Shown here in pieces: positions 31,312 through 36,387 of a DNA stretch of 64,000 nt. The DNA is taken from NCBI GenBank assembly GCA_018815245.1, contig JAHIXK010000005.1, positions 62,001 to 126,000 on the forward strand, in the 5' to 3' direction. The position numbers and the translations under genes were made by a program. This stretch comes from Gammaproteobacteria bacterium (GTDB lineage: Bacteria; Pseudomonadota; Gammaproteobacteria; Burkholderiales; Burkholderiaceae_B). The notes below the pieces were generated by a model, which was given only the letters and a program-made list of their open reading frames with translations, did not search any database and was not told the origin of the DNA. The number at the start of each line of letters is the position of its first letter. The first letter of the stretch is position 1.

Positions 31312-31605
31312 TCAGGCATTTGCCAGGCGAAGCTTCCCTACGCGGCGTAGATCTACATTTTTCCGCGCTACCCACAAATCGTGAGCGTCTTGCATGGCGA
31401 GCCAACTTTCAGGCGAGCGGCCAATTGCCTTTGAAAGACGTAGCGCCATTTCAGGCGTAATACGACTGCTACCGTTGAGAATGCGGCTAAGGGTCGAAGG
31501 GGCTACATCTAGCTTTTCTGCAAGTTCTCGACCACTTATTTCATGCGGCTCAAGATAAACACCAGTGATGAATTCACCGGGGTGGGGTGGGTTGTGCATG
31601 CTCAT
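31312..31605 (-). CDS. higA: HigA family antitoxin (XRE HTH)
   Basis: NPPHPGEFITGVYLEPHEISGRELAEKLDVAPSTLSRILNGSSRITPEMALRLSKAIGRSPESWLAMQ. Confidence 0.93.
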   Translation of the reverse strand: MSMHNPPHPGEFITGVYLEPHEISGRELAEKLDVAPSTLSRILNGSSRITPEMALRLSKAIGRSPESWLAMQDAHDLWVARKNVDLRRVGKLRLANA

Positions 31606-31883
31606 TAGTGATAATCCTCATAATCCAAGACGTGGGCATTGCCCTCACGAAACTCAAATGTTAAGCGCCAGTTGCCGTTAACTGATATCGCCCAACGGCC
31701 ACGCATTTCACCTTTGAGCGGATGAAGCGAAAAGCCTGGAATGTCGATGTCATCAATAGTCTCCGCAGTATCTAGGGCGGCTAGTTGCAAGCGGAGGCGT
31801 TTGGCATGGTTTGCCTGAATGCCAGCAACGCTGCCAATTTCAAAGAACTTACGGAGTCCTTTGTGTTTGAAAGATAAGATCAT
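31605..31883 (-). CDS. higB: HigB/RelE-family toxin
   Basis: MILSFKHKGLRKFFE...GRWAISVNGNWRLTFEFREGNAHVLDYEDYH. Confidence 0.93.
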   Translation of the reverse strand: MILSFKHKGLRKFFEIGSVAGIQANHAKRLRLQLAALDTAETIDDIDIPGFSLHPLKGEMRGRWAISVNGNWRLTFEFREGNAHVLDYEDYH

Positions 31884-31908: not shown

Positions 31909-32226
31909 ACGCATAATTGTTGAATGCGCTGCTTTGAGTTAGTGACTTTTGCGTGGAGGGGGTTCAATTATTGGAGTTTTGGGGAAAGGTTGGCGACTTT
32001 TTTCGGCCGGAGGAGACATTCTGCGATGATCTGCTGAATGCCTGCTTTGGGGTAAAGTAAAAGCCACCGCCCAAGCTTAAAGCCATCTGGACTAGAGGAG
32101 TGGGGGAGCAATTCAATATCCATTTAAATGTCATATTCACCCTTAACTACAGGAAAAAATCTGCATTTCTCACCCTTCTCTTATTTTTGCTAGGCTCACC
32201 TTCTTGAAAAACTCACGAGAAGAGCT

Positions 32227-32733
32227 TTGTCGATCATTCAATTTTTAAACGCAGAAAAAAGCATGCAGTTTGTGTCAGAGTACTCAAGGTTGGTGCTCAC
32301 AGACATCATGCGAAAGGCAGGCGTGCCGTCGATTCTGATTACCAGCACTGCGCGTACCCCTGCGGATCAAGCCCGAATCATGTATGAGAATATTGAGCGC
32401 TATGGGGTAGAGCATCAAAAATTGCTTTACAGCAAGTATGGTGACCAAGTGATTGACGAGTACTCAAAGTACAAATCGAAAAAGCATCACAAGCAGTTCA
32501 TTATTTCAATGATGCAGGCTAAGATTATTGCGCTTGATCCAACAAAGATTTCAAACCATGTTGCTGATCCAATGAAGTTGAATGTGATCGACATTGCCCC
32601 TTCCAGCATCGACCCAAGCTTACGCAGCCCGTTTGTGGCGGCAGTACAGGGCGAAAAACGAGTTGCAAAATACCTTGGCCCACCCAAAGACCCCGCCTAT
32701 CATCTGGAAATTCCACAGCCCGAGAAATTATGA
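32227..32733 (+). CDS. putative M15-like (VanY/D,D- or L,D-peptidase) peptidoglycan peptidase; candidate effector
   Basis: TTG start; ITSTARTPADQARIMYENIERYG, SNHVADPMKLNVIDIAP, AYHLEIPQP give putative H-D-H zinc ligands. Confidence 0.6.
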   Translation: MSIIQFLNAEKSMQFVSEYSRLVLTDIMRKAGVPSILITSTARTPADQARIMYENIERYGVEHQKLLYSKYGDQVIDEYSKYKSKKHHKQFIISMMQAKIIALDPTKISNHVADPMKLNVIDIAPSSIDPSLRSPFVAAVQGEKRVAKYLGPPKDPAYHLEIPQPEKL

Positions 32734-33230
32734 TTAAGAAAGCTGCTTTGTATTTGCTCTTTGTGTGTCTTTCAACTTCCCTAGCACCTGCTTGGGCAGG
32801 TTTCGGAAGCGACTGCGTATATGAACACAGTGGCGTTGATGTGCAGCAGTTTAAAAAATCGAGGCATGTGATTGGCTTTGAGAAGTTGGAGAGAAATACT
32901 GGTTACATGGGTGCCCTGAAAGGCATTGGTGGTTTTCACCTGCAACTTTTCAGTTGCGTGCACTACGGTGCAACGCTGACTGTTCTTCTTGGACCTAACC
33001 CCAACGCCGAGACCGTGACTAAAACCTTCAATGTATTGCCAGCCTTGTTATTCCCCGCAGTGGATGTGGCAAAGGTGAAGGCAGCGTTAAAGGAAGTTCA
33101 GTTAGACGCTTTGTACACAACGCAGCACCTGGAACCATTGGCCGCTGAAATGGGACTGACTGATATACGTGTGCAAATAATTGATGCAGACGGTATGAGT
33201 TTGTTGGTGTTTACGTTTTATGGGGGGTGA
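32730..33230 (+). CDS. exported hypothetical protein; candidate periplasmic immunity protein
   Basis: Signal peptide MIKKAALYLLFVCLSTSLAPAWAG; ATGA overlap with upstream peptidase gene. Confidence 0.6.
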   Translation: MIKKAALYLLFVCLSTSLAPAWAGFGSDCVYEHSGVDVQQFKKSRHVIGFEKLERNTGYMGALKGIGGFHLQLFSCVHYGATLTVLLGPNPNAETVTKTFNVLPALLFPAVDVAKVKAALKEVQLDALYTTQHLEPLAAEMGLTDIRVQIIDADGMSLLVFTFYGG

Positions 33231-33318
33231 GGTTTGTTGCGAGTGTGTCGGCTAGCGGCCTAAGCGGACATAAGGTTTTTGATTACGAAAGTCTTTAAAG
33301 TGGTCTCAAGCCGACTTT

Positions 33319-33420
33319 GTATAACGCCGTGCTCAGCGGCATTTTTGGAGGAGCTGTTTTGTGGTGACAACCACAAAACCAAGCGACGGAAAAATGTTCG
33401 CTGGAGTAATTTGTTATGGC
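33319..33420 (-). repeat. attC-like recombination site 1
   Basis: Minus-sense CATAACAAATTACTCCAGCGAACATTTTT ... AAAAATGCCGCTGAGCACGGCGTTATA imperfect inverted repeat with internal hairpin GTTTTGTGGTtgtcACCACAAAAC. Confidence 0.7.
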
Positions 33421-33430
33421 TAGAATCTGA

Positions 33431-33727
33431 TTAAAAAACCACCTGTGCAGCCCTTTCATTCATGCATTCAAATGCCCCCAATTCAAATTCACGACAAATC
33501 AAAGGCCGGTTTTCATAAATCGAACACATGAAGGTTTCGCGATTTATAGCAGAGCACCAACCATCATCTAAACGCAACATTGTTTCTGCACCCCATTTGT
33601 CGCGTGAAATATGGGCCTCTGGAACACCTGTGTCACTGAGAATCATGACCTCTAGGCGGCAGCAGGAAGCCTGGCAGTTTGCACAGCTGACCGCGACTTT
33701 GGATTCATTTTTGATATGAATAGTCAT
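33431..33727 (-). CDS. YkgJ-family cysteine cluster protein (cassette ORF)
   Basis: CANCQASCCRLEVMIL...WCSAINRETFMCSIYENRPLICREFELG. Confidence 0.85.
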   Translation of the reverse strand: MTIHIKNESKVAVSCANCQASCCRLEVMILSDTGVPEAHISRDKWGAETMLRLDDGWCSAINRETFMCSIYENRPLICREFELGAFECMNERAAQVVF

Positions 33728-33816
33728 GTATGTTGTCAATAAAAATAGATATGTATTTTTGCCAAGTTGACCATATTTAAAATCATCTTGGGTCGTGTTG
33801 GAGCGGCCGAACTTTG

Positions 33817-33909
33817 AGCCATAACGCCGTGTTGAGCGGCGCGGGGCACGAACAGAACCCGAAGGCCGCCGTTGTCTCACCGCGTCCGCCTCGAACACGT
33901 AGTTATGTT
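33817..33909 (-). repeat. attC-like recombination site 2
   Basis: Minus-sense CATAACTACGTGTTCGAGGCGGACGCGG ... CCGCGCCGCTCAACACGGCGTTATGG; arms complementary with bulges. Confidence 0.75.
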
Positions 33910-34166
33910 CTTGGGTCATATGAGAATTTTAGAGTCGGCTTCTCACCGGAAGGCTGGTAAGACACCCTTAAGATACGTTTTCCCTTGCACGCACTCTCTA
34001 GACGTAGGAGGAAACGGTTCCTTTCGTGTTCGTTCTCTTCAATTCTCTTGATTGCAACCCGATGAATTTCGAAAGTGCAAAAGGTCCTGCAGTCAACGCG
34101 ATACCAATTTTTTGGGTCAAACTCCGTAACCTGGCAGTCTTTACCGCACGCAATGCAAAGATCCAT
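33903..34166 (-). CDS. small hypothetical protein (cassette ORF)
   Basis: 87-aa ORF bounded by attC-like sites on both sides; stop lies inside site 2. Confidence 0.55.
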   Translation of the reverse strand: MDLCIACGKDCQVTEFDPKNWYRVDCRTFCTFEIHRVAIKRIEENEHERNRFLLRLESACKGKRILRVSYQPSGEKPTLKFSYDPRT

Positions 34167-34187
34167 TTTGCAATCCTCATTTAGAGA

Positions 34188-34246
34188 ACATAACGTTTGA
34201 ATTGAGGGGCGCCGTTAGGCGTCCCGCTTGAATGATGGGTTAGCCA
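34188..34246 (-). repeat. attC-like recombination site 3
   Basis: Minus-sense GGCTAACCCATCATTCAAGCGGGACGCCTAACGGCGCCCCTCAATTCAAACGTTATGT, classical short attC layout. Confidence 0.8.
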
Positions 34247-34250
34247 TGCG

Positions 34251-34595
34251 CTACCGACAAATAAAATTTGCAAGGTCACTTTTGCTTGAGCCTGGAACCA
34301 ACTCAAACCACTTAGTTGGATTTTCTTTGATGGATGATGGCGAATCTTCGCTGTAACCCAACTCTCGCATTTTCATAGTTTTGCAATTGGTTTCCGTGAG
34401 CGTATAGCCAACGCTGTCAACACCAACGCGCTTATGCAAAGCGCGCACAATAGCCCTGCTTTTTTTCTTTTCAAGAAGGTAATACTTCCCTTTATCACCT
34501 GCAACGCTGCGTGGAATTGGAATCTCGGATGCTGCTATTGTTGACGAGGTGATTAAAGTGCCAACAAGAAATGCAATAATTTTTTGACTAAGCAT
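34251..34595 (-). CDS. exported hypothetical protein (cassette ORF)
   Basis: Signal peptide MLSQKIIAFLVGTLITSSTIAAS; starts ~14 nt after GTTAGCC boundary. Confidence 0.65.
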   Translation of the reverse strand: MLSQKIIAFLVGTLITSSTIAASEIPIPRSVAGDKGKYYLLEKKKSRAIVRALHKRVGVDSVGYTLTETNCKTMKMRELGYSEDSPSSIKENPTKWFELVPGSSKSDLANFICR

Positions 34596-35008
34596 GTACT
34601 CTCCATTGTGGCTAACTTGATTTATCGAACAATAACGGCGATATCCATTTATCCGAACATCGCGATATATTTCATTAATTTAACCATTTCAAATGTTTGC
34701 CAAGCATTGCATGAACAGGATGAAAAATAAACCCTGGTTATTCGCCACCATATGGCGAGCCTGGAACTCTATTCCGAAGGTCAGTGTCATCATCGACTAC
34801 CGTCTAAGTTTAGAAGTCTGCTTTTGCCAATAATACAGTCGTTTCATCATTCAGTCCCAACGTCCGCTTCGGCCGAAATACCGGCCTTTGCGTTTATTCA
34901 GTCTGCTGTAAATTCAGTCAACAATACGAAGATAAACGCCCCTTTGGACGCCTTACCCAACCCTGTTTAACATAGCAGATGTATGCTGCCGCCGTTGCAG
35001 GAATTGAG

Positions 35009-35605
35009 CTATTTGCGTGCGAAGGCAAGAAGTGGAGAGATGTCGCTCTGGTCGGCAGCTCGTAGGGCGGCCAGATATTCGGCCCGCATTTCGCTCTGGC
35101 TCACAAGGGAAGCATGTCCACCGTTGCCCCATGTAAAAGGTTCCAACCCCATCTTCTGGAGCGGAAGGTCAGCGATCAAACGACAGCACCTTCCATTGCC
35201 ATTTGGAAACGGGTGGGTAAGCACAAGCTGGTGATGAAACCGTGCCGCCAGCTCATCCGGGGGCATGGCATTGTGTTCGACCTGATACTTGGTGTTCTCC
35301 AGTGAGTTCCGGACGCGCGTAGAAACCTGACGCCAATCGCAGCCGATATTCTTGTCGCTCTTGCGGTACGTGCCGGCCCATGTCCATGTATCGCTGAACA
35401 TCCGCTTATGCAGCTTGCGCAGGAACACATCATCCAGGATGTCCTGCTTGAGCTGGCGCTGAGCCCATCGGGCGCCCTTGATGATATTGAGCTGCTCCCA
35501 TTCATTGAGCTCGCTCTGCGTCGAAATGTGCTTGGGCTTCAGGCCCTCTTTTTCATCCGGATCGAGCGGGGTCTGCCCGGGCTGATACGTGAGTTCCATC
35601 ACCAC
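35009..35605 (-). CDS. Fic/DOC family protein, mobile mystery protein B
   Basis: Fic motif HPFPNGNGRCCR; GARWAQRQLKQDILDDVFLRKLHKRMFSDTWTWAGTYRKSDKNIG. Confidence 0.9.
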   Translation of the reverse strand: MVMELTYQPGQTPLDPDEKEGLKPKHISTQSELNEWEQLNIIKGARWAQRQLKQDILDDVFLRKLHKRMFSDTWTWAGTYRKSDKNIGCDWRQVSTRVRNSLENTKYQVEHNAMPPDELAARFHHQLVLTHPFPNGNGRCCRLIADLPLQKMGLEPFTWGNGGHASLVSQSEMRAEYLAALRAADQSDISPLLAFARK

Positions 35606-36057
35606 AACTCGCGCCAGTTGCCGTCGAGCAGCTCTTTCGCCATGAGCTCCAACTGCATCTGCTGCGCCTTGCTGCCAACGGCTTGGTCCTCAAGCGACAT
35701 GGTATGCGCCACGGGGAGCATTTGCTTTCGAGCCACGATCTTCGCTTGGCCCTTCAACTTGACCTCCAGGGATGTTTTCGGCACGAAGACATAGTGAAGC
35801 TCGCAATCCAACGCGGCGGCAACCTTGCGCAAAGAGGCTAGCGTAATACTGTCGTCGGCCTCGCTCTTCTCAAGTTTGTGCACCGTAGAGTTTCTTACAC
35901 CAAGGCGTCGAGCAAGCGCCACAGCAGTCATACCAAGGGCCTCCCGGACGGTCTGTATCCAGCCGTTGGGCGGCCGCGGGGGAAAGGTTTTCTTAAGTAC
36001 GGGTTTCAGCTGCTTGTCAGTCTGACGAAGCTGCAGCCAGCGGTAGGAATTGTCCAC
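35599..36057 (-). CDS. mobile mystery protein A (XRE-type HTH)
   Basis: WIQTVREALGMTAVALARRLGVRNSTVHKLEKSEADDSITLASLRKVAAALDCELHYVFVPK; overlaps downstream Fic gene. Confidence 0.9.
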   Translation of the reverse strand: MDNSYRWLQLRQTDKQLKPVLKKTFPPRPPNGWIQTVREALGMTAVALARRLGVRNSTVHKLEKSEADDSITLASLRKVAAALDCELHYVFVPKTSLEVKLKGQAKIVARKQMLPVAHTMSLEDQAVGSKAQQMQLELMAKELLDGNWRELW

Positions 36058-36150: not shown

Positions 36151-36387
36151 GGAATACCAAATAGCAACAGGCGCGGCAAAAACCCTGCTCAAAGTTGCAG
36201 TTACTCACCCGGAAGTTCTGGGTGAACTTGGTACTTAACCGACTCGGCTCATGTTAAAGAAAACGCATTTTTTTAACATGATGAGAATTTCACGTTAAAG
36301 ATGTCGATGTTCTTCAGCATGAGGTAGCAGTCTTTTTGGGTCGATCAATTCACCAACCCTTTCGAGTGAACCGAATCAGCGGCTTCT

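Follow-up and report, generated by a model that had tools for sequence, protein, structure and literature searches.

How did three gene cassettes come to stand together in a chromosome at a place where no integron integrase is encoded? Clusters of attC sites lacking an integron integrase (CALINs) occur in numbers similar to those of complete integrons (PMC9024848) and are presumed to use an IntI in trans (PMC9024848, PMC12444791, PMC11389934), whose action on CALINs from elsewhere is an accepted idea (PMC11389934, PMC12444791). Their published origins are off-target insertion, intI loss, and rearrangement (PMC8618304).

The array examined here lies in a window of 64 kb, by which we mean the whole stretch of DNA that was analysed (C13:62001-126000 of a 3.2 Mb genome in 17 contigs). 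A scan with the attI pattern assigned the genome to the genus Limnobacter. The first-pass annotation of this window called the array CALIN-like, and the definition does apply: three attC sites are present (the minimum being two), the cassettes have a single orientation, and no intI is nearby. The label is nevertheless incomplete, because the array begins with an attI and is closed by a conserved right end. As in a complete integron, attI heads the array; unlike in a complete integron, intI is not next to it. The attI and the conserved right end point to a bounded integrase-less platform rather than to cassettes stranded by intI loss, rearrangement, or off-target insertion. We put at roughly 80% the probability that the window holds one of a Limnobacter family of integrase-less integron platforms, with cassettes added by IntI in trans and with platforms that probably spread as transposon-like units.

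Cassettes, attC sites and attI of the array

The array is about 95 kb away from the nearest end of its 264-kb contig and is therefore not an assembly break. Three inverted-repeat elements had been proposed in it from the sequence alone, at 33319-33420, 33817-33909, and 34188-34246, with a covariance model and bottom-strand folding as the checks to run. We trained an attC covariance model, R1, on 32 sites from arrays beside intI in relatives and in this genome, with the window excluded; its consensus pairs showed strong covariation. A search of both strands of the 64-kb window with filters off returned exactly three sites, all three being the proposed elements with slightly different borders (Table 1), and all scoring far above the next best match, which was noise at 11.4 bits. 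The R1 alignments contained the R''-L''-L'-R' arm pairing of attC, the L'' arm bearing extrahelical bases. On the bottom strand, the two longer sites folded better than shuffled sequences, and attC3, the shortest, was weak on its own (z -1.9). An Rfam scan of the window gave no match.

Table 1. Features of the element, in window coordinates, listed from its left end to its right end.
Feature	Position	Strand	Description
Whole element, integrase-less mini-integron	33247..34886	-	1.64 kb; left end 34886, right end 33247; outer limits good to ~10 bp
Left unit before attI core	34662..34886	-	~225 bp; first ~75 bp form the left inverted end (CGGTATTTCGGCCGAAGCGGACGTT...)
attI core	34612..34661	-	GATGTTCGGATAAATGGATATCGCCGTTATTGTTCGATAAATCAAGTTAG; 96% identical to the attI by intI, C5:190644-190694
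attI crossover	34610..34616	-	GTTAGCC (G^TT); TTAGCC is the exact complement of R'' GGCTAAC in the first cassette's attC
First cassette (adjoins attI)	34194..34615	-	Limits are the attI and attC3 crossovers
ORF of first cassette	34251..34595	-	114 aa; N-terminus signal-peptide-like
attC3	34188..34245	-	58 bp; R'' GGCTAAC, R' GTTATGT; R1 43.1 bits, E 1.7e-7
Second cassette	33825..34193	-	Limits are the attC3 and attC2 crossovers
ORF of second cassette	33903..34166	-	87 aa; small Cys-containing protein; stop within attC2
attC2	33819..33908	-	90 bp; R'' ACATAAC, R' GTTATGG; R1 27.4 bits, E 5.4e-4; fold z -2.4
Third cassette	33325..33824	-	87% identical relative at C2:351213-351763
ORF of third cassette	33431..33727	-	98 aa; CxxCxxCC putative metal-chelating domain PF03692; Pfam 37.8 bits
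attC1 (last site)	33319..33419	-	101 bp; R'' CCATAAC, R' GTTATAC; R1 33.3 bits, E 2.7e-5; fold z -3.5
Right end	33247..33326	-	~80 bp; starts at the last crossover (GTTATACAAAGTCGGCTTGAGACC...); finishes in the inverted terminal motif

The boundaries of the cassettes were exact to the crossover. Their starts, TTAGCC, TTATGT, and TTATGG, were in all three cases (3/3) the exact complement of R'' in the cassette's own attC. Across nine arrays this rule held at 132 of 138 variable positions, whereas 20,000 shuffles averaged 71.6 and never exceeded 92. Such complementarity between cassette start and R'' is the trace that IntI recombination leaves behind. The R1 scores and the exact own-start rule together established all three as genuine gene cassettes with attC. 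A chance meeting of inverted repeats and small ORFs, unrelated to integrons, would fit the weak fold of the shortest site taken alone; it is refuted by the R1 scores, by the own-start rule, and by the attI homology described below, and we give it practically no weight.

A fourth GTTAGCC-type boundary had been noticed just upstream of 34595. It is real and proved to be the attI crossover, as the preceding 50 bp match the attI beside the intI of contig C5 at 96%. The R'' of the first cassette agreed exactly with the attI-side start in the window, as it did in L094 and L114, two further orphan platforms.

Each cassette carries a small minus-strand ORF. The stops assigned to these ORFs in the first-pass annotation stand, whereas the start of the ORF that ends at 33431 is more likely 33727, a start codon taken from the sequence and lying inside the cassette, than 33919 within attC2. 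The ORF of the first cassette had no match in Pfam or NCBIfam, and a family search with the ORF of the second was likewise without a match. The relative of the third cassette on contig C2 is part of a different array of this genome, also headed by an attI. Related cassettes (83-90% identical) were found in intI-type and orphan arrays alike, and several of them begin directly at an orphan attI.

intI and attI copies in Limnobacter

An IntI homologue search of the window found none, in agreement with the earlier claim. Extending the search to the rest of the genome, as had been advised, revealed a single integron integrase gene, on contig C5 (C5:189683-190539), where it heads a long cassette array. 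This intI is broken: compared with an intact relative, it aligns to residues 1-255 in one frame and to residues 282-347 in another, with ~26 residues deleted. Because the only intI of the genome is broken, the array is probably frozen in this strain at present, unless IntI is supplied. Among the Limnobacter relatives, intI was observed at every stage from intact down to a 32-residue remnant.

The attI core was present in 14/14 well-assembled Limnobacter genomes, usually more than once per genome, with about 50 copies in all. In 22 of these copies the preceding sequence differs from the left unit of the window, and 10 of the 22 have an intI immediately upstream (2 intact, 8 decayed), including the copies at C5 and at C13:14188 of the window's own genome. 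The core of the remaining 28, the window's included and with G066:C3:1066018 counted as an orphan platform, terminates a common left unit that is dispersed over 28 places in Limnobacter. In the window this unit, with its attI core, spans 34612-34886 (~275 bp; 28 aligned copies). A tblastn search with IntI found no intI homology in the left unit, the window copy and the rest of the 28-copy set being alike in this respect. The core was the best conserved stretch of the left unit, with a mean pairwise identity of 81% versus 55, 65, and 69% elsewhere, and was thus kept above the rest of the unit although intI is absent in cis.

In the window's genome, 25 attC calls formed four clusters, each downstream of an attI copy, and in three complete or nearly complete relatives (G131, G112, and G066) all 50 calls lay behind an attI copy, giving 75/75 over the four genomes. 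At the attI loci that were fetched, every attC match was downstream of attI and on the same strand. The exceptions were an array of G151 (C10:278069-287483), for which the 9.5 kb of upstream sequence retrieved showed no attI, and one array of G153 that runs to its contig end; these two keep the attI-headed status from being shown for every array in the genus. Of the 43 genera in the family, one had the left unit, and searches of plasmid, phage, and viral-contig collections (the last with the attI pattern) recovered neither left unit nor attI. The mini-integrons are best read as an ancient family restricted to the genus Limnobacter.

The two ends and the spread of the platforms

The right end of the window element scored 67.7 bits with a right-end profile and 71.5 bits (E 1.6e-19) with R2, a model trained on right ends alone and run over the genus Limnobacter. 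In the aligned right ends, the junction at the last crossover joins GTTAT directly to CCAAAGTCGG..., and in more than 10 orphan platforms the right end begins at the crossover of the last attC. Within the window, R2 matched the right end (C13:95247-95326) and, in inverted orientation, the left end (C13:96814-96886, E 3.5e-4). Over the genus it recovered many left ends, also inverted, and ~25 strong right ends, most of which had a same-strand left unit as partner, with most of the others at or near contig ends. A profile of the outer part of the left unit found partial inverted copies directly after the last attC of several arrays. The similarity score between the left and right ends of the window element was 37, and the control maximum was 23 (n = 300). 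The left and right ends therefore resemble inverted relatives of each other. Terminal inverted repeats were clear in the window and in about half of 15 elements, and decayed in the others. A simple test with the terminal motif yielded few inverted copies downstream of arrays, and the motif alone, at 3 mismatches, was not enriched in the genome, so that our statements about the ends refer to the full ~75-80 bp. Beside intI-type arrays of the genus, neither the right-end profile nor R2 found a right end.

These features suggest a platform that would consist of a left inverted end, a short leader, attI, cassettes, and a right inverted end. The IntI would come from another place in the cell, encoded by an integron that has its own intI and an almost identical attI, and would place circular cassettes at the orphan attI by attI x attC recombination. 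We infer such action in trans because the orphan attI core is conserved, the first R'' matches the attI-side start, and cassettes are related across both kinds of array. The platforms would have been dispersed around the genome as non-autonomous units by a transposase from another element, and dispersal as transposon-like units of this kind is likely. We lean slightly towards the full combination: a genus-wide set of non-autonomous platforms bounded by inverted repeats that hold attI and cassettes but no intI, with a transposase moving them and an IntI filling them, both in trans.

Two of the published routes to CALINs would explain the array without any such unit. Ordinary decay, in which a former integron lost its cis intI and left attI and cassettes behind, does occur at other Limnobacter loci, where the 10 attI copies with intact or decayed intI upstream document it; for the window it is unlikely, because its left unit and all 28 copies are without any trace of intI and share the same ~225 bp instead, and because intI-type loci are without the right end. 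One ancestral loss of intI followed by multiplication of the product is possible and would be compatible with the platform explanation. Off-target insertion, with cassettes added singly by IntI at a non-classical, attG-like chromosomal site, is an accepted route (PMC8618304; an attG study is cited in PMC11389934), but the insertion point here is a 50-bp homologue (96%) of the cognate attI, inside a recurring unit and accompanied by a recurring right end, which makes this origin highly improbable.

A variant of the platform explanation concerns only the manner of spread: the ends would not be transposon ends, and the platforms would have spread by hot-spot recombination, or the ends would be borders of exchangeable islands. 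We hold this variant as a tentative but serious alternative. It is in keeping with the finding of no consistent target-site duplication in 15 elements, whose copies are old and whose exact ends are uncertain; this result tells against transposition. It would also account for other cargo at two element sites, which indicates that the terminal motifs may border exchangeable islands. At one of these (C1:369680-373853; L171:3680-7853), orthologous to the L099 site where G151 and G153 have a mini-integron, the same outer motifs enclose a Lamassu-like operon in the window's genome; at the other, the L108 site, G112 carries ABC-3C-like genes (L183:4298-10406, on its C1) and the window's genome has a mini-integron. 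Furthermore, the mini-integron and its right flank are 100% identical among L099, L100, and L097 (G153, G151, and G154), over >6 kb in G151/G153, and in this pair the identity begins ~300 bp outside the left end; other G151/G153 loci differ by ~10%. The identical region suggests a recent transfer between species. Against the variant, the ends occur at many unrelated places, and their ~75 bp of left/right similarity is as expected of terminal inverted repeats.

The Lamassu-like operon encodes LmuA- and LmuB-type proteins separated by a 193-aa protein, is flanked by the same outer terminal motifs, and lies a few hundred bp past a tRNA-like stretch. The ABC-3C-like genes of G112 comprise an HNH protein with CTD11, a DUF2326 protein, and a ParA-like protein, and the right end is only partial at that site. 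Several candidates for an autonomous or empty form were set aside. The L099 site in the window's genome was considered as an autonomous transposon and rejected on finding the Lamassu-like operon. The right part of a G147 junction, considered as an empty site, is itself a dispersed repeat, so we claim no empty site there; G090 was rejected as a clean empty site, having the flanking gene and the terminal motif with the array absent. The regions read contained neither an autonomous relative sharing these ends nor a transposase, and no cassette-free copy of the platform was seen.

Relation to known systems and neighbouring genes

Unlike CALINs as described, the window element possesses an attI, its left and right ends are conserved, and it recurs as a unit. 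It shares with the sedentary chromosomal integron of this genome, the intI array on C5, a 96% identical attI core, the same attC type, and related cassettes; it differs from that array in being without intI in cis, in the sequence upstream of attI, in its short array, and in its defined right end. A Tn402-like class 1 integron between two MITE-like copies was reportedly described by Gillings et al. 2009 (cited in PMC8618304). On that description the two cases are alike in placing an integron between inverted, miniature-element-like ends, and they differ in that the inverted-end unit here itself holds attI, is without intI, and is old and chromosomal. Delta-attI-type gene cassettes, which are cassettes of mobile integrons bounded by pieces of attI (PMC12901181), resemble the element in having attI away from its usual place beside intI, whereas the attI of the window is the head of a cassette array.

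If the platform explanation is true, it would add a fourth route to CALINs, with a single integrase serving several dispersed docking sites. As all well-assembled Limnobacter genomes contain dispersed related copies, a single integrase encoded outside the platforms could load many of these sites, and since these arrays have their own conserved docking site and defined ends, it may be that some CALINs, at least, originate as satellite platforms. The attI site varies between integrons and is hard to recognise without a known cognate; a similar arrangement could therefore have been overlooked elsewhere. In the open-licence literature we found no prior description of dispersed integrase-less attI platforms, or of multiple, orphan, or duplicated attI, and an earlier description is possible.

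The surroundings of the element contain several further small units. A terminal-like motif also occurs at 32002 of the window; in G090 it follows the flanking gene, with the array absent. A two-gene unit with no Pfam match (32227-33230) adjoins the right end, and a HigB/HigA-like toxin-antitoxin pair is located at 31312-31883. By the left end, Fic/DOC and HTH proteins are encoded at 35009-36057, with PADLOC matches to PDC-S04 and SoFic; this pair is missing at that place in G153 and G154. A short dispersed repeat at 36165-36238 (GGCGCGGCAAAAACCCTGCTCAAAGTTGC...) occurs next to several variable Limnobacter loci.
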